A stretch of 64,000 nt of DNA from Pseudomonas sp. HAR-UPW-AIA-41. Lineage in GTDB: Bacteria > Pseudomonadota > Gammaproteobacteria > Pseudomonadales > Pseudomonadaceae. The stretch is taken from positions 372,001 through 436,000 of the forward strand of contig NZ_NSLB01000001.1 of assembly GCF_002304225.1 (NCBI RefSeq), given 5' to 3'. Shown one piece after another: positions 27,386-35,997 of this stretch (position 1 is its first letter; each line of letters starts with the position of its first letter). The notes beneath the pieces were generated by a model that saw only the letters and a list, made by a program, of their open reading frames with translations, did no database searches and was not told where the DNA came from. The position numbers and the translations under genes are program-made.

Positions 27386-28495
27386 ATGGGCAACGCCGCG
27401 ATCAAACTGCGTGGGGTGAATCTGGGCAGCTGGCTGGTACTGGAGAAATGGATGGTGCCCAGCCTTTTCGAGGGGCTGGCGGCCACCGACGAGACGACCT
27501 GGTGCGCCGAGCTGGGCGAGGCTGCCGGGGAACGCCTGCGGGCCCACTGGCAGCGCTGGATTACCCGCGAGGATTTTGCCTGGCTGGCCGAGCGTGGCAT
27601 CAACGCCGTGCGCATTCCCGTGGGGCACTGGATTTTCGGCCCGGATTATCCCTATCACCCCAGCTACGGCGAGGCCCGTCATCCCTTTGTCGAAGGCGGC
27701 ATTGCCGTGCTCGACAATGCCATGGCCTGGGCGCAGGAGTTTGGTCTGCAGGTGGTGCTCGATCTGCACGCCGCGCCGGGCTGCCAGAACGGTTTTGACA
27801 ACGGCGGCATCAAGGATGTCTGCGAGTGGCATACAAGGCCTGAATACCTGGAGCACTCGCTGGCGGTGCTGGAACGACTGGCCGAGCGCTATGGCCGGCA
27901 TCCGGCGCTGCATGCCATCGAAGCCCTCAACGAGCCGCGCTGGGACGTGCCGACCGACTACCTGAAGGCCTATTACCTGCAAGCCTATGAGCGCATCCGC
28001 CGGCATGCGCCGGCCGAGCAGGTGGCGGTGGTGTTCCACGATGGTTTCCGCGATTTTCGCGAATACCTGGGCTTCATGCAGGCGCCGGAGTTCAGCAATG
28101 TGCTGTTCGATATCCACCGCTACCAGTGCTTCGAGCGTGGCGACATCGACATGGATATCTACGGGCACATGCGCAAGGCGGCCGGTGAGTGGAAGGCCGA
28201 GGCCGATGCCATCATCACCGAGCTGGGCCTGCCGACCTTCTGTGGCGAGTGGAGCCTGGGGCTGGACCTGAAAGTGGTGTCGCTGTGGGCGCAAGGGCCG
28301 TTCAATCATGCGCTGGAGCGCATGGACGATTTCCAGCAGAACGTGGCCTACCGTGGTTACGCCGCCGCCCAGTTGGCGACCTTCGAGAAGTATCAGGGCT
28401 GGTTCTTCTGGAACTACAAGACCGAGACCACCCCCGCCTGGTGTTTCCGCGAGTGTGTCGAGCGCGGCTGGTTGCCATCGAGCTTCGTGTCATGA
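27386..28495 (+). CDS. Glycoside hydrolase family 5, exo-1,3-beta-glucanase-like, cytosolic
   Basis: 369 residues. The start LRGVNLGSWLVLEKWMVPSL matches the yeast EXG1-like subgroup of GH5. The acid/base Glu is in IEALNEPRW (about residue 180) and the nucleophile Glu in FCGEWSLG (about 288). No signal peptide or transmembrane segment, so it should act in the cytoplasm on an imported or internal beta-glucoside or glucan. GGAAGGAC precedes the ATG 27386. It converges with an ABC-like/glucokinase operon, so released glucose could be phosphorylated by the neighbouring glk product; this is inference. Confidence 0.87.
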   Translation: MGNAAIKLRGVNLGSWLVLEKWMVPSLFEGLAATDETTWCAELGEAAGERLRAHWQRWITREDFAWLAERGINAVRIPVGHWIFGPDYPYHPSYGEARHPFVEGGIAVLDNAMAWAQEFGLQVVLDLHAAPGCQNGFDNGGIKDVCEWHTRPEYLEHSLAVLERLAERYGRHPALHAIEALNEPRWDVPTDYLKAYYLQAYERIRRHAPAEQVAVVFHDGFRDFREYLGFMQAPEFSNVLFDIHRYQCFERGDIDMDIYGHMRKAAGEWKAEADAIITELGLPTFCGEWSLGLDLKVVSLWAQGPFNHALERMDDFQQNVAYRGYAAAQLATFEKYQGWFFWNYKTETTPAWCFRECVERGWLPSSFVS

Positions 28496-28507: not shown

Positions 28508-30265
28508 TCAGTTCTGGCGCAGCGTGCAGGTCGGCTGTGAGCAGTTCAGGAAGCGCGGTTCAGCCAGGCGGTTGAGCACCAGCTTGCGGCTGAAGTGACG
28601 CTCCAGCCCCGGGTGGAAACTGATCGACAGCAGGGTGCTGTTGGGCAGCTCCTGGTGCAGCACATCCAGCAGGCAGTCCTCGCCATTGGCGTCCGAGGCA
28701 TCGGTAGCCTGCTCCATGAACACCCAGGCCGGGCGTTGCAGGATGACGCGGGCAATGCCCAGGCGCTGCTGGGCGCGCATCGGCAGCACGCGGTCCCAGC
28801 TGTCGCTTTCATCCAGCCGCGCAGTCAGCCAGGCGACGCCGGCGCATTCCAGCGCGTGCCGCAGTTCGCTGTCGCTGAAGTGGTTGATCGCATAGGGGTA
28901 ACTGAGGGCCGCGCGCAATGGACCTTCCGGGAGAAACGGGCGTTGCGGCAGGAACACCAGCGGTGTTTCGGCGGGCAGGCAGATCTCGCCGCTGCCCCAG
29001 GGCCACAGACCAGCCACGGCCTTGAACAGGCCGATGGTCACGGCGGGGTCGCCGGCAATCAGGATGCGCTCGCCGCGCCGCACGCGCAGATCGAGATGCT
29101 CCAGCAGCACTTCGCCATCGGGGTTGGCCAGGCACAGGTTATTCAGGCTGAGGTGGCCCGAGTCGCCCGGGCGCAGCTCGATGCGATGCTCCATGGGTTC
29201 GCGCGCCTGCTGCTCCAGATCGAGCATGTCCTGATACAGACTGACCACGCGGTCGGCCGAGGCGCGGCAGCGGGCCAGCTCGCCCAGGTTGTCCACCGGC
29301 CAGGACAGGGCCGAGGTCAGGCGCTGGAAGGCCATGGCTGCCTGCATGAGGATGCCGAGGCTCATGAGCCCGGCGATGTACTGCGGGGCGGCGACCAGAA
29401 TCGGGAACACCGGCAGCAGCGCGCCATAGCCGGCGGAGAACGAGACGATGCCCAGGTAGCCGAGGGTCTGGCGGTTCCAGCCGCGGCCGACATCGGCGAA
29501 CAGGCGCTCGGCATGTTGGCGCTCCACAGGCTCGCCGTGCATCAGGGCAATCGATTCGGAGTGCTCGCGGGTGCGCGCCAGGCCAAAGCGCAGGTTGGCC
29601 TCCACGGTCTGCAGGTGGTTGGTGGCCTTGACCAGCGGGCGGCCGAGCAGCAGGCCGAGCAGGGTTCCGCCGCCAGCGTAGAGGAAGGCGAGGATCACCA
29701 GATAACCGGGCACAGCGATGTCGGTGCCGGGAATCGGCAGGCTGCCGGACAGGCCGTAGAGAATGTCGATGAAGCTGCCGAGAATCAGCAGCGAGTAGAT
29801 CAGCGAGTGGGCCAGACCGATGGCTGAATCGGTAACGATGCGGATGTCCTCGGCGATGCGCCCGTCCGGGTTGTCGTGCTCGCCTTCCTTGAACAGCAGC
29901 TGGTAGTGATGGCCGCGACTGAGCCACTGGTCGAGCAGGCGTTCGGTCATCCAGCGGCGCCAGTCCAGCTGCAGCCAGCGTTTGACATGCAGGTGCAGCG
30001 CGGTGACCAGCATGGTCAGCAGGAAGATCACGGCGAAGGTGGCAATCTGCACCAGCAGCGCCTGCAGCGAGCGGTCTTCCAGGGCATCGAACAGTTCGCG
30101 CTGCCAGTAGCTGGTCCAGATCACCAGACCGACCTGGCCGAGTGTCAGGCCCAGCAGCAGGGCCACGGCAGTGCGGATGGTCCATTTGCGCTCGCTGCGC
30201 CAGTAGGGCGCGGCCAGACGCAGGAAGCGCCAGCGCTGACGGGGCGGACGGCTGCTGGGCTGCAT
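28508..30265 (-). CDS. ABC-type membrane/ATP-binding fusion protein (YddA/SbmA-like) with degenerate nucleotide-binding motifs
   Basis: 585 residues. The N-terminal half (about 1-330) has six hydrophobic segments of the ABC_membrane_2 type, with the EHDNPDGRIAEDIR segment typical of the group. The C-terminal half aligns with an ABC ATPase but its motifs are ruined. The Walker A position reads LIAGDPAVTIGLFK (about 397-410), with no Gly-Lys-Ser/Thr; the LSGGQ position reads PMRAQQR; the Walker B end reads VFMEQATDASD with Gln for the catalytic Glu. The frame has no stop or frameshift, so the protein is kept but can hardly hydrolyse ATP as a homodimer. Starts two bases after the glk stop, so both form an operon. 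Confidence 0.85.
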   Translation of the reverse strand: MQPSSRPPRQRWRFLRLAAPYWRSERKWTIRTAVALLLGLTLGQVGLVIWTSYWQRELFDALEDRSLQALLVQIATFAVIFLLTMLVTALHLHVKRWLQLDWRRWMTERLLDQWLSRGHHYQLLFKEGEHDNPDGRIAEDIRIVTDSAIGLAHSLIYSLLILGSFIDILYGLSGSLPIPGTDIAVPGYLVILAFLYAGGGTLLGLLLGRPLVKATNHLQTVEANLRFGLARTREHSESIALMHGEPVERQHAERLFADVGRGWNRQTLGYLGIVSFSAGYGALLPVFPILVAAPQYIAGLMSLGILMQAAMAFQRLTSALSWPVDNLGELARCRASADRVVSLYQDMLDLEQQAREPMEHRIELRPGDSGHLSLNNLCLANPDGEVLLEHLDLRVRRGERILIAGDPAVTIGLFKAVAGLWPWGSGEICLPAETPLVFLPQRPFLPEGPLRAALSYPYAINHFSDSELRHALECAGVAWLTARLDESDSWDRVLPMRAQQRLGIARVILQRPAWVFMEQATDASDANGEDCLLDVLHQELPNSTLLSISFHPGLERHFSRKLVLNRLAEPRFLNCSQPTCTLRQN

Positions 30266-30267
30266 GG

Positions 30268-31221
30268 CTAGTGCCGCCGCGCCAGTTGCAGGGCGACCTG
30301 GGCGGCGCCGTGCAGGCCGAGCAACTCATCGCGCACCACATGCAGGCCGATTCCGCTCAGCAGTGCCTGCATCGGCGGCTTGTCGGCAAAGGCCTGCAGC
30401 ACGGCGGGCTGTTGCAGGTACGGCAGCATCTTTGGTGCGATACCCCCGGAAATATAGACACCACCCTCGGCCAGGCTGGTCAGCGCCAGGTTGCCGGCGG
30501 CGCTGCCGAGCAGGCGGGCGAACAGCTCAAGGCTCTGTCGTGCGGCGTCATCGCCCTGTTCGGCCAGCCGGCTGATCTGCCGGGCGTCGGGCAATTGCGG
30601 ATGGTCGGCGGCTTGTGCGGTGAAGAAGGCATACAGGCGGCTCAGGCCACGACCGCAGAGGAGTAGTTCCAGACTCACGCGCCGGTAGTGACGACGCAGA
30701 AACTGCAGCAGCTCGATCTGCTGCTCATCGGCCGGGGCAAAATCGGCATGCCCGCCCTGGCTGGCCAGCGCCAGCGGGTGCTGGGCCGTGCCGCCCAGCA
30801 GAGCCATGCCCAGACCGGTGCCGGCACCGAGCAGGGCGCGGGTGCCGAGGCGGCTGGTGCCCGCCTGCAAGGTGGTGAGCGCTGAGTCAGGCAGCAGAGG
30901 CAGGCCATGGGCCTGGGCGGCAAAGTCATTGATCAGTTGCAGGTGCGGGATGTGCAGCTGGCGGCTGAGCTCACCGGCATCCACCTGCCAGGGCAGGTTG
31001 GTCAGTTGCACCTGCTGCTGGTGGACCGGGCCGGCAAGGGCCAGGCAGGCGCTGTTGGGCTGCTCGCCCGGCTCAAGGAACTGCGCCAGCAACTCCTGCA
31101 GGCTGGCGAACGCCTGACTGGGCAATACGGCCTGGCGCACGGGCTGCCACTGGCTGCCCTGAGCTTCGGCCAGTAACAGCCGTGCCTGGGTGCCTCCGAT
31201 GTCTGCCGCCAGAATGATCAT
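30268..31221 (-). CDS. glk: Glucokinase
   Basis: 317 residues from ATG 31221, which has GAGG five to eight bases upstream; ATG 31236 in frame is possible. It phosphorylates glucose with ATP. Motifs of bacterial Glk: AADIGGTQARLLLA at the N-terminus, LINDFAAQAHGLP with the catalytic Asp (about 95), GAGTGLGMALLGG, GGHADFAP and VYISGGIAPK. In P. aeruginosa glk lies next to edd; here it is 10 kb from edd and linked to the ABC-like gene. Confidence 0.94.
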   Translation of the reverse strand: MIILAADIGGTQARLLLAEAQGSQWQPVRQAVLPSQAFASLQELLAQFLEPGEQPNSACLALAGPVHQQQVQLTNLPWQVDAGELSRQLHIPHLQLINDFAAQAHGLPLLPDSALTTLQAGTSRLGTRALLGAGTGLGMALLGGTAQHPLALASQGGHADFAPADEQQIELLQFLRRHYRRVSLELLLCGRGLSRLYAFFTAQAADHPQLPDARQISRLAEQGDDAARQSLELFARLLGSAAGNLALTSLAEGGVYISGGIAPKMLPYLQQPAVLQAFADKPPMQALLSGIGLHVVRDELLGLHGAAQVALQLARRH

Positions 31222-31358
31222 CCGTGCCTCGCTCATTCGCCTATTGCGCAAGACTAACCCGAAGCGTCCGGCTTTGCCTTGATCTGTGCCGGTGGGCCTG
31301 GCTCTAGCTAGCGAGCCTGTGAACAGGCTCTAATGCGTGTCCTTAGCTCTTGTCCGGG

Positions 31359-32240
31359 ATGTCGTCCTTTGTCCAAATCCCTGCCTGCCGCCAGTCGTCT
31401 GCACCTGCCGCGTGGTCCCTGGCACACCGTGCTGGAGTGCCTGTGCGCGCGTTTTCCGGCGTTGCCGAGGATGTCTGGCGTTCGCGCATGCAGCGCGGAC
31501 TGGTGCAGGACTTGGCCGGCCAGCCGCTGAACGAGTGCAGCCCTTACCGCGAGGGTCTGGGGGTGCAGTATTTCCGCGAGGTGGCGGACGAGCCGCAGAT
31601 TCCCTTCGAGCTGGAGATTCTCTATCAGGACGAGCACCTGCTGGTGGTCGACAAGCCGCACTTTCTCGCCTGTGCCCCGGTGGGACAGTGGGTCGAGCAG
31701 ACGGCGCTGACCCGCCTGCAACGGCTGCTGGACAATCCGCAGCTGGTGCCGCTGCACCGCCTGGATCGCCTGACGGCCGGGTTGTTGATGTTCTCCTGTC
31801 AGCCGTCCAGCCGCGATGCCTACCAGGCGCTGTTTCGTGAGCGGCGCATCGACAAGACCTACGAGGCGCTGGCGCCGGCGCTGGAGCAGCTGCAGTTTCC
31901 CTACCTGGCCGAGCATTGTCTGGAGCGGGGCGAACCCTTCTTTCTGACCCGCATCGCCGAGGGGCCGGCCAACAGTCAGACGCGTATCGAGGTGCTGGAG
32001 CGGCGTGCTGACTGCTGGCTCTATGCGTTGTACCCGCACAGCGGACGCAAGCATCAGCTGCGCGTGCAGATGGCGGCGCTTGGTGCGCCGCTGCTCAATG
32101 ACCCCTGGTACCCGGTGGTTCAGGCCGAGGAGGCCGATGACTTCAGCCGGCCGCTGCAACTGCTGGCGCGCCGCCTGAGCTTTACCGATCCGCTGAGCGG
32201 CGAACTGCGCGAGTTCGTCAGTCGCCGTCAGCTGAGCTGA
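31359..32240 (+). CDS. RluA-family RNA pseudouridine synthase
   Basis: 293 residues. An RluA-type catalytic domain: HLLVVDKPHFL (about 95-105) and the signature PLHRLDRLTAGLLMFS with the catalytic Asp (about 138), then the RKHQLRVQMAALG motif. It is not RluA, RluC or RluD proper; it has no S4 domain but a long N-terminal extension with SPYREGLGVQYFREV. This subgroup is common in Pseudomonas; the target RNA is unknown. The ATG 31359 is preferred over a TTG three codons before it. The 3' end overlaps the convergent c-di-GMP gene by 13 bases. Confidence 0.85.
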   Translation: MSSFVQIPACRQSSAPAAWSLAHRAGVPVRAFSGVAEDVWRSRMQRGLVQDLAGQPLNECSPYREGLGVQYFREVADEPQIPFELEILYQDEHLLVVDKPHFLACAPVGQWVEQTALTRLQRLLDNPQLVPLHRLDRLTAGLLMFSCQPSSRDAYQALFRERRIDKTYEALAPALEQLQFPYLAEHCLERGEPFFLTRIAEGPANSQTRIEVLERRADCWLYALYPHSGRKHQLRVQMAALGAPLLNDPWYPVVQAEEADDFSRPLQLLARRLSFTDPLSGELREFVSRRQLS

Positions 32241-35200
32241 TCAGGCACCGAGCCGTCACAGGCCGGCAGCAACAGCTGGCAGAAGTCCTGCAGGGGGACT
32301 GGTTTGCTGAACAGATAGCCCTGGCACACGTGACAGCCCTGGGCTTCCAGCAGCGCCAGCTGCTGCGGGGTTTCCACCCCTTCGGCCACCAGGGTCAGGC
32401 CCAGACTTTGCGCCATGGCGACAATGGCGCGGATGATCTCGGCATCGTTCTGATCGATGCAGGCATCGCGGACGAACGACTGGTCGATCTTCAGCACGTC
32501 CACCGGCAGGCGCTTGAGGTAGGTCAGCGAGCTGTAACCGGTGCCGAAGTCGTCCATGGCGAAGCTGACGCCGAGTTTCTTCAGGCGGTTCATCTTGGCG
32601 ATGGTGTCGTCGAGGTTCTGGATCACGATGCCTTCGGTGATTTCCAGCTTGAGCATGCGGGCCGGCAGGCGCGAGTTTTCCAGGCAATCCATCACCTGCT
32701 CGACGAAGTCGACCTGACGGAACTGCCGCGGGCTGATGTTGACGCTGATGCTGAACTCTTCACGTTGCACCAGCCCCTGCTCCAGCAACTGTTGAGTCTG
32801 CAGGCAGGCCTGACGCAGTACCCAGTTGCCGACTTCGAGAATCAGCCCGCTCTCTTCGAGAATCTGGATGAACAGCGCCGGTGACTGCTGGCCCAGCGTG
32901 GGGTGTTGCCAGCGCAGCAATACCTCGGCGCCGACCATGCGCTGCGACTGGCTGTCGACCTGGGGCTGGAAGTGCAGGAGGAATTCGTTGCGTGGCAGGG
33001 CCAGGCGCAGGTCGCTTTCCAGACGCAGGCGTTCGCTGGCCACGGTCTGCATGGTTTTCTGGAACACCTGCACGGTGTTGCGCCCGGAGTCCTTGGCCCG
33101 GTACAGGGCAATGTCGGCCCGCTTGAGCAGGTCGGCCGGGTTGTCGCCGTGGTCGGGCAGCATGGCGATGCCGATGCTCGGGGTGATCTGCAGACGATGA
33201 CCTTCAATGAGCATCGGCTCGGCCAGCAGGGTGCGCAGCTTGTCGGCAACGCTGCGTGCCTCGCGGGTGGCCTCGGTGCGCTTGCCTTCCAGACCGCTGA
33301 GCAGCACGACGAACTCGTCGCCACCCAGGCGCGCCACGGTGTCCTCCATGCGCACGCAGGATTCCAGGCGGGCGGTGACCATCTTCAGCACCGAGTCGCC
33401 AACCGGGTGGCCGAGTGAGTCGTTGATGTGCTTGAAGTGGTCGAGGTCCAGATAGAGCAGGGCGCCGCGCAGGTTGTGACGCTTGAGCAGCGCGATCTGT
33501 TGGGTCAGACGGTCGAGCAGCAGCGTGCGGTTGGGCAGGTTGGTCAGTGGATCGTGGTAGGCCAGATGCTGGATCTGTGCCTGAGCCTGTTTGAAGGCGG
33601 TGACGTCACGGGAGATCAGCAACAAGCAGTCGCTGCCGGCAATGCTGATCGGCTCGGCGGAGACTTCCACGGTCATGGCCCGGCCATCGCGGCTCAGCGC
33701 CTGTAGCTCGAGATTGTGTACATGGCCGTCGCGTTGCAGGTGGTCGATCAGCAGTTGGCGCTGGCTGGCATCGGCCCAGGTATTGAGTTCCAGGGACGTC
33801 CGTCCGAGTACTTCCTCGGGCTGATAGCCGGTGAGACGGCAGAAGCCGGCGTTGACCTCAAGGAAGCGGCCGGTGCTGCGCTCGCTGATGCTGATGGCAT
33901 CGGGCGAGGCGTGGAACGCCTTGGCAAATTTCTCCTCGCTGTACTTGAGCAGGCGTTCGGCATTTTCGCGGTCGGTTACGTCGCGGAAGGTCGAGACGAT
34001 GCACAGCTGACGGTCGACGCGGATAAAGCGGCTGGACACCTGGCAGGTCAGGAGATCGCCGCCCTTGGTGTTGTACTGCGCCAGTTCATTATCCAAGCCT
34101 TGTTGAGCTTTCAGTTTTTGGAACAGGCGTTGGCGCTCACTGGCCAGTGCCCAGAAGGGCACGCTGCCGGCGTCGCGGCCTAGCAGATCGTCGAGGCTCC
34201 AGCCAAAGATCTGGGTGAAGCTTGGATTGATGTCGATGAAATGGCCGTCGCGAATGCGCGATACGCAGATCGGGTCCGGGCTTGAGTTGAACAGGGTGAC
34301 GAACTTTTCCTCAGATGCAGCAATTTGCCGCTCGCGCTGTGTCCGCTCGGTGATATCGGCGACCACACCGGTGATGCGGCGCGGTTGACCCTGTTCGTCC
34401 AGGTAAAGAGTGGCCGTACTCTCAAGATGAAGATGACCGCCTTGAGGAAGCCTGACCCTATAGTGCAGCTGGCGAGCTTGGCCAGGCTGGCGCTTCATCT
34501 CTTCAAATTGTTCGCGAAGGTGCTGCTGGTCATTGCGCTCAAGGTGGACGAAGAACTGCCTGTAGTCGGCATGGAACGGTTCATCAGACAAACCGTGCAG
34601 TCTGCTGCAGCGCGCTGAGGCGAAGAACTGCAGCGTCTTCAGATCCCAGTCCCAGGTGCCCAGTTGTGCCGAATCCAGGGCCAGTTTGAGACGTTGTTCA
34701 CTGCTACGCAGTGCCTGCTCCTGGCGGCGTTGCAGAGTGATGTCGCGCAGTGTCAGGGCCAGGCAGGTGCGTCCTTCAATCTCGCATTCGGCACCATACA
34801 AGAGGTTGGTGCTGGTTGCGCCGTTACGGTGGCACAGCTCGGCCTCAAGGTGTTCGAGTCGTCCTTGGGCGTCGAGTGCATCAATCATCCGCTGGCGGTC
34901 TTGGGGATCACCCCAAATACCCAGTTCCAAGGATGTCTTGCCAATCGCTTCGGCGGTACTCCAGCCAAATTGCTTCTCGAATGAGGGGTTGACGGCGATA
35001 AAGCGTCCCGTCGTACGGTCTGTGATGACAACCGTGTCCGGCGTGGTAAGGAAGGTTTTAGCGAACTTTTCCTCACTGCTATGCAGAGCTTGTTCTGTCG
35101 CAATGCGTTCGCTTTCATCAAGAAAGCTGCACAGCAGGCAGGGTTCGCCATCGATCACGATGCTGCGCGCCGAGAGCGTGCCACAGAGTTGCTGGCCATC

Positions 35201-35878
35201 GCGTCGGCGAAAGAGGGCGAAGAGCGTGACGGGCTTTTCGAGATGGCGGCTGCGGCGCCGCAGTTCATCGCGTTGCTGGGTATCGACCCATAGCTCCAAC
35301 TCCATGGCTGTGTGTCCCAGGCAGTCCTGCCGTGACCAGCCAAAGAGTTCACAGAACTGGTCATTGACATCGATGATGCAGCCATCGCAATAGCGCAGCA
35401 GTGCCATGGGGCCGGGGTTGAGCTGGAACAGGGCGCTGTAGCGTGCCTGAGTAGCGGCTTGCTCAGCCTCGCGCTGTTGCAGGTGGCTGATATCGCGCAA
35501 TACGCCAAGCAGGCTGGGCTTGCCGTCGGCCTGGGTCAGCAGTTGGCCACTCAGTTCCAGCCAGCGTAAGGTGCCGTCCGCCAGTTTAATGCGATGCTTC
35601 AGGGCTAGCTCACGGCCGGGTTGCTGATCGAGCGAGGCCAGGGTGGCAATCAGTTCTGCGCGGTCTTCCTCAATAATCAGTTCGATATAGTCGCTGAGTT
35701 GACGCAAGGGCTGCTGCGGGTTTCGGCCAAGCAGGCGCAGGCAGCCGGGCGAGAGATTGAGCAGGTCAGCTTGCGGGTCCCAGAACCAGGTACCCAGTTG
35801 CGCGGCATCCAGCGCCGCACTGAGTTGACTCAGATGGGCGTGCAGATCGGCAGGCGCGGCGGGTGAGGCTTCAGCCAT
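32228..35878 (-). CDS. Six-PAS GGDEF-EAL (c-di-GMP) signalling protein
   Basis: 1216 residues from ATG 35878; a GTG at 35893 is a possible earlier start and neither has a clear ribosome binding site. No transmembrane segment, so cytoplasmic. I count six consecutive PAS domains of about 120 residues each, from about 15 to 760, then GGDEF (about 775-945, with RLGGDEFVVLL intact) and EAL (about 965-1210). The EAL motif reads GAEVLLRWQHP, but Asn in NISPRQF, Glu in LEITEG, DDFGTGYSSL and Lys in LKIDQSF are kept, so phosphodiesterase activity is plausible. The I-site upstream of GGDEF has ARLESC rather than RxxD. A multi-PAS sensor could respond to redox, light or small ligands. Confidence 0.93.
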   Translation of the reverse strand: MAEASPAAPADLHAHLSQLSAALDAAQLGTWFWDPQADLLNLSPGCLRLLGRNPQQPLRQLSDYIELIIEEDRAELIATLASLDQQPGRELALKHRIKLADGTLRWLELSGQLLTQADGKPSLLGVLRDISHLQQREAEQAATQARYSALFQLNPGPMALLRYCDGCIIDVNDQFCELFGWSRQDCLGHTAMELELWVDTQQRDELRRRSRHLEKPVTLFALFRRRDGQQLCGTLSARSIVIDGEPCLLCSFLDESERIATEQALHSSEEKFAKTFLTTPDTVVITDRTTGRFIAVNPSFEKQFGWSTAEAIGKTSLELGIWGDPQDRQRMIDALDAQGRLEHLEAELCHRNGATSTNLLYGAECEIEGRTCLALTLRDITLQRRQEQALRSSEQRLKLALDSAQLGTWDWDLKTLQFFASARCSRLHGLSDEPFHADYRQFFVHLERNDQQHLREQFEEMKRQPGQARQLHYRVRLPQGGHLHLESTATLYLDEQGQPRRITGVVADITERTQRERQIAASEEKFVTLFNSSPDPICVSRIRDGHFIDINPSFTQIFGWSLDDLLGRDAGSVPFWALASERQRLFQKLKAQQGLDNELAQYNTKGGDLLTCQVSSRFIRVDRQLCIVSTFRDVTDRENAERLLKYSEEKFAKAFHASPDAISISERSTGRFLEVNAGFCRLTGYQPEEVLGRTSLELNTWADASQRQLLIDHLQRDGHVHNLELQALSRDGRAMTVEVSAEPISIAGSDCLLLISRDVTAFKQAQAQIQHLAYHDPLTNLPNRTLLLDRLTQQIALLKRHNLRGALLYLDLDHFKHINDSLGHPVGDSVLKMVTARLESCVRMEDTVARLGGDEFVVLLSGLEGKRTEATREARSVADKLRTLLAEPMLIEGHRLQITPSIGIAMLPDHGDNPADLLKRADIALYRAKDSGRNTVQVFQKTMQTVASERLRLESDLRLALPRNEFLLHFQPQVDSQSQRMVGAEVLLRWQHPTLGQQSPALFIQILEESGLILEVGNWVLRQACLQTQQLLEQGLVQREEFSISVNISPRQFRQVDFVEQVMDCLENSRLPARMLKLEITEGIVIQNLDDTIAKMNRLKKLGVSFAMDDFGTGYSSLTYLKRLPVDVLKIDQSFVRDACIDQNDAEIIRAIVAMAQSLGLTLVAEGVETPQQLALLEAQGCHVCQGYLFSKPVPLQDFCQLLLPACDGSVPDQLS

Positions 35879-35997
35879 AGGCAGCAGTTCCACTACATGT
35901 CGGCACGTACTGGTCCGTGCTCGGACAAGGGTGCTGATCGTTATTGTCCGGTCACACTAGCCCCGTTGCCGGCTTACCTGCAAGCAACATTGCCGGC

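Follow-up and report, generated by a model that had tools for sequence, protein, structure and literature searches.

A 585-residue ABC half-transporter encoded in the window, the whole stretch of 64,000 nucleotides that was analysed, was found to have lost the ATPase motifs of its nucleotide-binding domain (NBD), in common with 13 relatives. Judged by sequence comparison, these proteins form one branch, are under purifying selection, are linked in their core members to a GH5 exo-beta-1,3-glucanase homologue and lack the NBD altogether in one genus. The preferred reading, to which a probability of roughly 0.4 was given, is that the protein (hereafter the query) belongs to an old, selected lineage of ATP-independent homodimeric carriers, which would bring beta-1,3-gluco-oligosaccharides into the cytosol, with GH5 and glucokinase acting downstream.

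The query was assigned to the YddA/Rv1819c type of ABC half-transporters by Pfam and phmmer. Residues 32-264 matched ABC_membrane_2 (PF06472) with an E-value of 1.7e-37 and 129.7 bits against a cut-off of 24.4, which places the protein in this family, and a match to SbmA_BacA (E 3.7e-19) was also obtained. The best solved relative was Rv1819c (6TQE), whose alignment covers query residues 67-563 (E 2.8e-63, phmmer); because of this span, the query has both a transmembrane domain (TMD) and a fused C-terminal domain of NBD fold. The best stretch of the NCBIfam model TIGR00954 on the query, 363-565, stayed under its cut-off. The features are collected in Table 1.

Table 1. Features of the query, its neighbours and its NBD-free relatives; positions are those of the window, except where a locus is named.
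Feature	Position	Strand	Basis or occurrence
Pseudo-ABC half-transporter, 585 aa	28508..30265	-	Single intact frame; Pfam, phmmer, motif alignment
Transmembrane domain, residues 14-340	29246..30226	-	Pfam stretch 32-264; limits chosen for trees
His91	29993..29995	-	14/14 lineage, 0/100 other homologues
His130	29876..29878	-	14/14 lineage, 2/100 other homologues
His153	29807..29809	-	14/14 lineage, 1/100 others; aligns with SbmA V207, four residues past ladder E203
Degenerate Walker A, GDPAVTIG, residues 405-412	29030..29053	-	Motif alignment
Retained Q-loop region, FLPQRPFL, residues 438-445	28931..28954	-	Motif alignment
Degenerate signature motif, LPMRAQQ, residues 494-500	28766..28786	-	Motif alignment
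Degenerate Walker B and catalytic Glu, WVFMEQ, residues 514-519	28709..28726	-	Motif alignment
H-loop His replaced by Phe550	28616..28618	-	Motif alignment
Glucokinase	30268..31251	-	Pfam Glucokinase, E 2.1e-95; 2 bp upstream of transporter
GH5 exo-beta-1,3-glucanase homologue	27386..28495	+	Convergent, tail to tail with transporter
NBD-free relatives, 386 aa	L126:9239-10396; L141:5190-6350		Two genomes, one genus

The ATPase motifs were read in 110 proteins, query included, and in three further paralogues, a selection from the homologue matches. Walker A was intact in 95 of the 110, and its strict pattern was missing in the other 15, namely the 14 lineage members and a YddA-type homologue (L090, genome G136), a mild case in which only the first Gly of the P-loop is replaced (APSGYGKS). 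In the query, the pattern GxxGxGK[ST] has given way to GDPAVTIG, one residue short and with no Lys, and LPMRAQ stands where LSPGEQ was expected, so that an LSGGQ-like signature is missing. The Walker B Asp is replaced by Glu (E518), the catalytic Glu by Gln (Q519) and the H-loop His by Phe; the Q-loop (PQRPF) is kept. The claim of an earlier sequence-only reading, that three ATPase signatures are lost within one intact frame, was thus confirmed, and the loss extends to the H-loop His. ATPase activity is presumably lost in the query and in its lineage.

Homologues were drawn from the genus (298 genomes), near relatives (144), the order (390), the class (369) and the phylum (378), together with smaller draws from families or orders of 6, 5 and 4 genomes. 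Genomes recur among the draws, and for the genus, near-relative and phylum draws the best matches were listed, or loci for a few only; the Pseudomonas fluvialis protein (L032, 96% identity) was taken from a named genome collection. The group with shared motif loss comprised 14 proteins, whose genomes span two classes and six families. Nine of them form its core: the query, the P. fluvialis protein, three others from Pseudomonas (G240, G284 and G093, 67-68% identical to the query), two from family f9 (G347 and G355, 60-65%) and two from family f18 (G392 and G419, 62-63%). These are also the nine proteins, query counted, at 60% identity or more, and all have dead motifs. Every core member carries GDP[AT]V[TSA] with a one-residue deletion, LP[LMP]R[AE]QQRLG at the signature (the LP[LMP]R[AE]Q part standing at the query's LPMRAQ), Glu for the Walker B Asp, and no H-loop His, which is Phe in seven and Val in two; the H-loop state of L077 and L078, unflagged by the script pattern, was taken from the alignment. 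Only the query and P. fluvialis are without the catalytic Glu, which the other seven keep, so that its loss, also claimed from the letters of this locus, holds for the query but not for the lineage.

The loss was graded among the more distant members. The protein of G1176, from another class (47% identity), has lost Walker A and kept the H-loop His and the catalytic Glu, and in those of G792 and G907 (43-45%) neither Walker A nor the H-loop His remains but much of the signature does, G792 also keeping the Walker B Asp-Glu. A shortened, lysine-free P-loop is common to all 12 NBD-bearing members, the other motifs being lost to varying degrees, and because it is common to all of them the P-loop was probably lost first. 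In G810 the NBD is absent, and the protein stops after the TMD at 386 residues; since a second genome of the same genus, G1043, has the same protein (90% identical), this is unlikely to be an assembly error. In G810 (L126) the NBD-free gene is followed by a frame that was judged hisH-like by eye.

These relationships were reproduced in trees of both domains. In a first TMD tree, 12 dead rows lay on one side of a branch (support 100/99), and in a first NBD tree 11 dead rows fell together (100/98); a warning of the program marked the joining of L085 and L086 to the lineage as a possible long-branch artefact. Second trees were made with these two removed and with L131 and L132 added, and in them all 14 members formed one branch by TMD (100/98) and all 12 NBD-bearing members one branch by NBD (100/99). 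The core nine were one group (100/100), and the NBD-free pair was grouped with G1176, G792 and G907 (96/92), its exact place being poorly supported (57/6). The NBD-free relatives are possibly an independent SbmA-like protein; in the first tree the G810 protein lay inside the lineage and apart from SbmA, itself a very long branch. Whether homologues share the loss had been proposed as a check, and they do, down to 43-47% identity and across 14 proteins.

The distribution of the losses also bears on whether the query is a catalytically slow or nucleotide-gated ABC protein, binding ATP without a canonical P-loop or retaining some hydrolysis. The conserved NBD core and Q-loop, with 73 of 202 NBD-region positions invariant in the nine core members, are in keeping with such a protein, but the P-loop Lys, the signature Ser and Gly, the Walker B Asp and the H-loop His are changed in all nine, and two lineage members do without an NBD, which makes this alternative improbable.

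Selection on the gene was estimated against P. fluvialis, giving a dN/dS of 0.069 overall, 0.087 for residues 1-335 (TMD) and 0.065 for residues 365-566 (NBD); in the same species pair, the neighbouring glk and GH5 genes gave 0.154 and 0.038. In eight further pairs, nearer saturation, whole-gene values ran from 0.058 to 0.389, and the NBD value was above that of the TMD in three (query-L003, query-L005 and L004-L005), equal in one, lower in three and undefined in one. The NBD/TMD protein distance ratio of the core members, with medians of 1.12, 1.32, 1.23 and 1.05 by bin (4, 7, 23 and 1 pairs), was similar to that of live homologues (1.35, 1.15, 1.23 and 1.16). There is thus no sign of a general relaxation of the NBD. 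Chance can be excluded as the source of the motif changes, since relatives share them and purifying selection acts on the gene.

That a recent pseudogene in decay would account for the five lost motifs is scarcely credible, and this candidate was rejected on the dN/dS against P. fluvialis; moreover, the frames are open in all 14 members, and the loss is common to relatives down to the lowest identities of the lineage. The idea that the protein has been kept after catalysis was lost was therefore borne out, and the contrary case, in which close relatives have intact motifs and this copy decays neutrally, fails on the dN/dS values, overall and for the NBD, and on the dead motifs of every protein that is at least 60% identical. 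Elsewhere among the YddA-type homologues, L104 (G952) and L116 (G895) have one in-frame stop each (TAA and TAG), and are pseudogenes or sequence errors.

A dead half-transporter might be paired with an active one in a heterodimer. Three lineage genomes (G093, G284 and G1176) do carry a paralogue of 37-39% identity with intact motifs, which would suit this arrangement, but the single PF06472 match and the single PF05992 match in the query's genome, the two families searched, are both this protein. An active partner from the same family was thus rejected for the query, the earlier suggestion of a partner for an active subunit lost its candidate within these families, and the heterodimer was considered very improbable.

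The gene neighbourhood pointed to sugars. Glucokinase (glk) and the transporter are likely co-transcribed, as judged from their spacing and strand, and glk is adjacent in five of the nine core members, those of Pseudomonas only. In the four others the adjoining upstream gene is luciferase-like, CN hydrolase, GDSL-like or ANKH-like, and glk was absent from their stretches of 11-18 kb, of which L064 and L122 start about 1.3 kb upstream; glk was rejected as the defining partner on this ground. Near glk, the window also holds a 1221-residue protein (32228-35893, minus strand) with a GGDEF motif and an EAL-like end, recognised by eye in the translation, and in G093 a DDE transposase (L060:12943-14406) lies beyond glk, beside the conserved gene group.

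By contrast with glk, the GH5 gene was adjacent and tail to tail in all nine core members, from three families, the copies outside the window being 68-97% identical to the one in it; the copy of G284 is cut by the contig end. Among the 298 genus genomes, a GH5 orthologue was found in four, the same four in which the listed matches show a core-type transporter (67-100% identity to the query), and a fifth GH5 match, in G192, was distant (29%). The Fisher p of this co-occurrence, 3e-9, is descriptive, the genomes being related and the genes linked, and thus not phylogenetically independent. The GH5 protein resembles solved exo-beta-1,3-glucanases: the match to 8z2w had an E-value of 6.4e-59, and those to several entries named exo-beta-(1,3)-glucanase lay at about 1e-54. 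No obvious leader was seen by eye in the eight complete GH5 N-termini, so the enzyme is probably cytosolic, and it is this by-eye reading that argues for import as the direction of transport. GH5 was not found in the 7-19 kb flanks of the five distant members, and the downstream frames of two of these, L140 and L124, showed neither informative families nor a match to each other. The sugar role first read from the glk linkage therefore survives in part: a role with sugar oligomers fits, but the glk link is local to Pseudomonas and the conserved partner is GH5, which that reading did not name.

Additionally, a GH17-like protein followed by an 864-residue GT2 protein was detected beyond GH5 in G347 (L064), the GH17-like match scoring 27.9 bits (E 2.3e-6), just short of the Pfam cut-off of 28.2. 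The GT2 protein is cyclic-glucan-synthase-like, no NCBIfam match over cut-off being obtained for it. A strong homologue (E at most 1e-200) was present in 13 of the 14 lineage genomes, and G240, a genome 77% complete, gave a weaker match only; in the five distant members the homologue is only 43-45% identical. Among non-lineage genomes it occurred in 24 of 30 other Pseudomonas, in 4 of 4 other f9 and in 0 of 12 other controls. Since it is common in Pseudomonas and f9, the association is informative only outside both, where all seven lineage genomes and none of the 12 controls have it (Fisher 2e-5, with unequal phylogenetic sampling).

The TMD was compared within the lineage and with SbmA. Fourteen columns (Q44, T88, H91, K95, R96, G128, H130, G135, H153, Q266, I297, Q314, P323 and S336) are invariant in all 14 members, and each is found in no more than 2 of 23 live homologues and 5 of 100 other homologues; six of them (H91, K95, R96, G135, Q314 and P323) occur in none of the 100. 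P323 comes right after W322, the counterpart of the gate residue Y368 in the alignment with SbmA. The membrane half had been called normal, and these lineage-specific columns show that it is not simply so. Invariance at 43-47% identity suggests constraint on the TMD columns, and some of the lineage-specific residues could have been fixed by shared descent alone.

In excerpts of PMC13316013, SbmA has a glutamate ladder (E193, E203, E269, E276, E287 and E378), and its proposed origin is a YddA-like protein from which the NBD was lost. Together with the SbmA_BacA match and the invariant His residues of the TMD, this origin would agree with a strict proton-driven importer of peptides or mixed hydrophilic solutes working through that ladder, the sugar neighbours being incidental. 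The alignment speaks against it: of the six positions, the query has Glu at two, those matching E193 and E276, and these are acidic in 23 of 23 and 20 of 23 live ABC relatives. Nor is there an equivalent of TM0, as the alignment pairs query residue 27 with SbmA residue 85 and the first hydrophobic segment begins at 29, and the GH5 linkage in nine of nine core members would be left as coincidence. The absence of an NBD, a trait of the SLiPT proteins, was found in the relatives from G810 and G1043 and not in the query. The strict ladder mechanism was accordingly rejected, a proton-driven importer literally like SbmA, as once suggested, does not fit the four missing glutamates, and this alternative as a whole appears unlikely.

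It is also rather unlikely that the protein has given up transport and now assists or regulates beta-1,3-glucan metabolism from the membrane, perhaps as a glucan sensor or scaffold. Constraint on a dead NBD and the genomic association with GH5 and GT2/GH17-like genes would agree with such a role. Against it, 57 of the 81 lineage-invariant TMD columns hold the commonest residue of the 23 live homologues, and an NBD-free form with an intact TMD has been kept in two genomes.

We infer transport, its direction, substrate and driving force, the oligomeric state of the carrier and a clamping role of the NBD along the following lines. The beta-1,3-gluco-oligosaccharides would come from NdvB-type cyclic beta-1,3-glucan made by the cell itself, through its breakdown or as by-products, or from environmental laminarin, and would be imported by the carrier without its using ATP itself. 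The cytosolic GH5 exo-beta-1,3-glucanase would then free glucose from them, which glucokinase would phosphorylate in Pseudomonas, so that ATP would be spent at glucokinase instead of at the transporter. Once hydrolysed and phosphorylated, the sugar would be trapped, which by itself could draw more of it in; proton coupling may or may not add to this, and H91, H130 and H153 are candidates for it by alignment. The dead NBDs may have been retained as a structural clamp on the TMDs, dispensable once the TMD had adapted, as the NBD-free members suggest. Several points count against the carrier reading, whose function is read from sequence: GH5 is convergent and outside the transporter operon, it was not found in the flanks of the distant members, the GT2 protein is common outside the lineage, and in three of the eight further pairs the NBD has the higher dN/dS.

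A wider proposal, held at a little under even odds, is that in this lineage an ATP-driven ABC transporter was turned, independently and for a second time, into a carrier that works without ATP. The carrier would be adapted to beta-1,3-gluco-oligosaccharides and would have living intermediates: the P-loop would have gone first, the signature, Walker B and H-loop would have followed to varying extents, and one genus would have shed the NBD entirely. The transition from primary to secondary transporter is an open question, and the lineage offers natural intermediates for it, some that still carry a dead NBD and some that have none. It therefore allows direct tests of the order in which parts were lost, of what an NBD does without catalysis and of the new driving force. 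An uptake step for beta-1,3-glucan fragments is also proposed in this way for bacteria with cyclic-glucan-synthase-like proteins.

No description of dead homodimeric ABC transporters or of this lineage was found in open-licence PMC literature, the scope of searches that were in part broad. In heterodimeric ABC exporters with one degenerate site, such as TAP and TM287/288, one site stays active; degenerate ATPase-site motifs are common to both, but the query's genome has no family partner (PF06472/PF05992). The GT2 protein is like NdvB and the 'Orphan' cyclic-beta-glucan synthase of pseudomonads in size and make-up, and with NdvB the linkage is beta-1,3, as for GH5; it may be a metabolic partner of the carrier. 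The cyclic-beta-glucan synthase is described in PMC10237404, excerpts of which name no such transporter.

Among the nearer systems, SbmA/BacA (SLiPT) has a TMD related to that of the query, for which ATP-independent work is likewise proposed, and the query differs from it by its fused NBD, the lack of TM0 and the four missing ladder glutamates. Excerpts of PMC13316013 call SbmA a peptide importer and Rv1819c a cobalamin transporter, and report some YddA proteins with separate TMD and NBD genes. Rv1819c has the same domain order as the query, and its aligned stretch keeps a P-loop with lysine and an SPGEQQR signature, both of which the query is without. BclA is reported to require ATP hydrolysis, in excerpts of PMC12003926 that make no mention of degenerate NBDs. 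The YddA/BclA family (ABC_membrane_2) is by Pfam the parent family, and the lineage is one branch among such proteins: Walker A is intact in 95 of the 110 sampled, whereas the query has lost Walker A and four other motifs.
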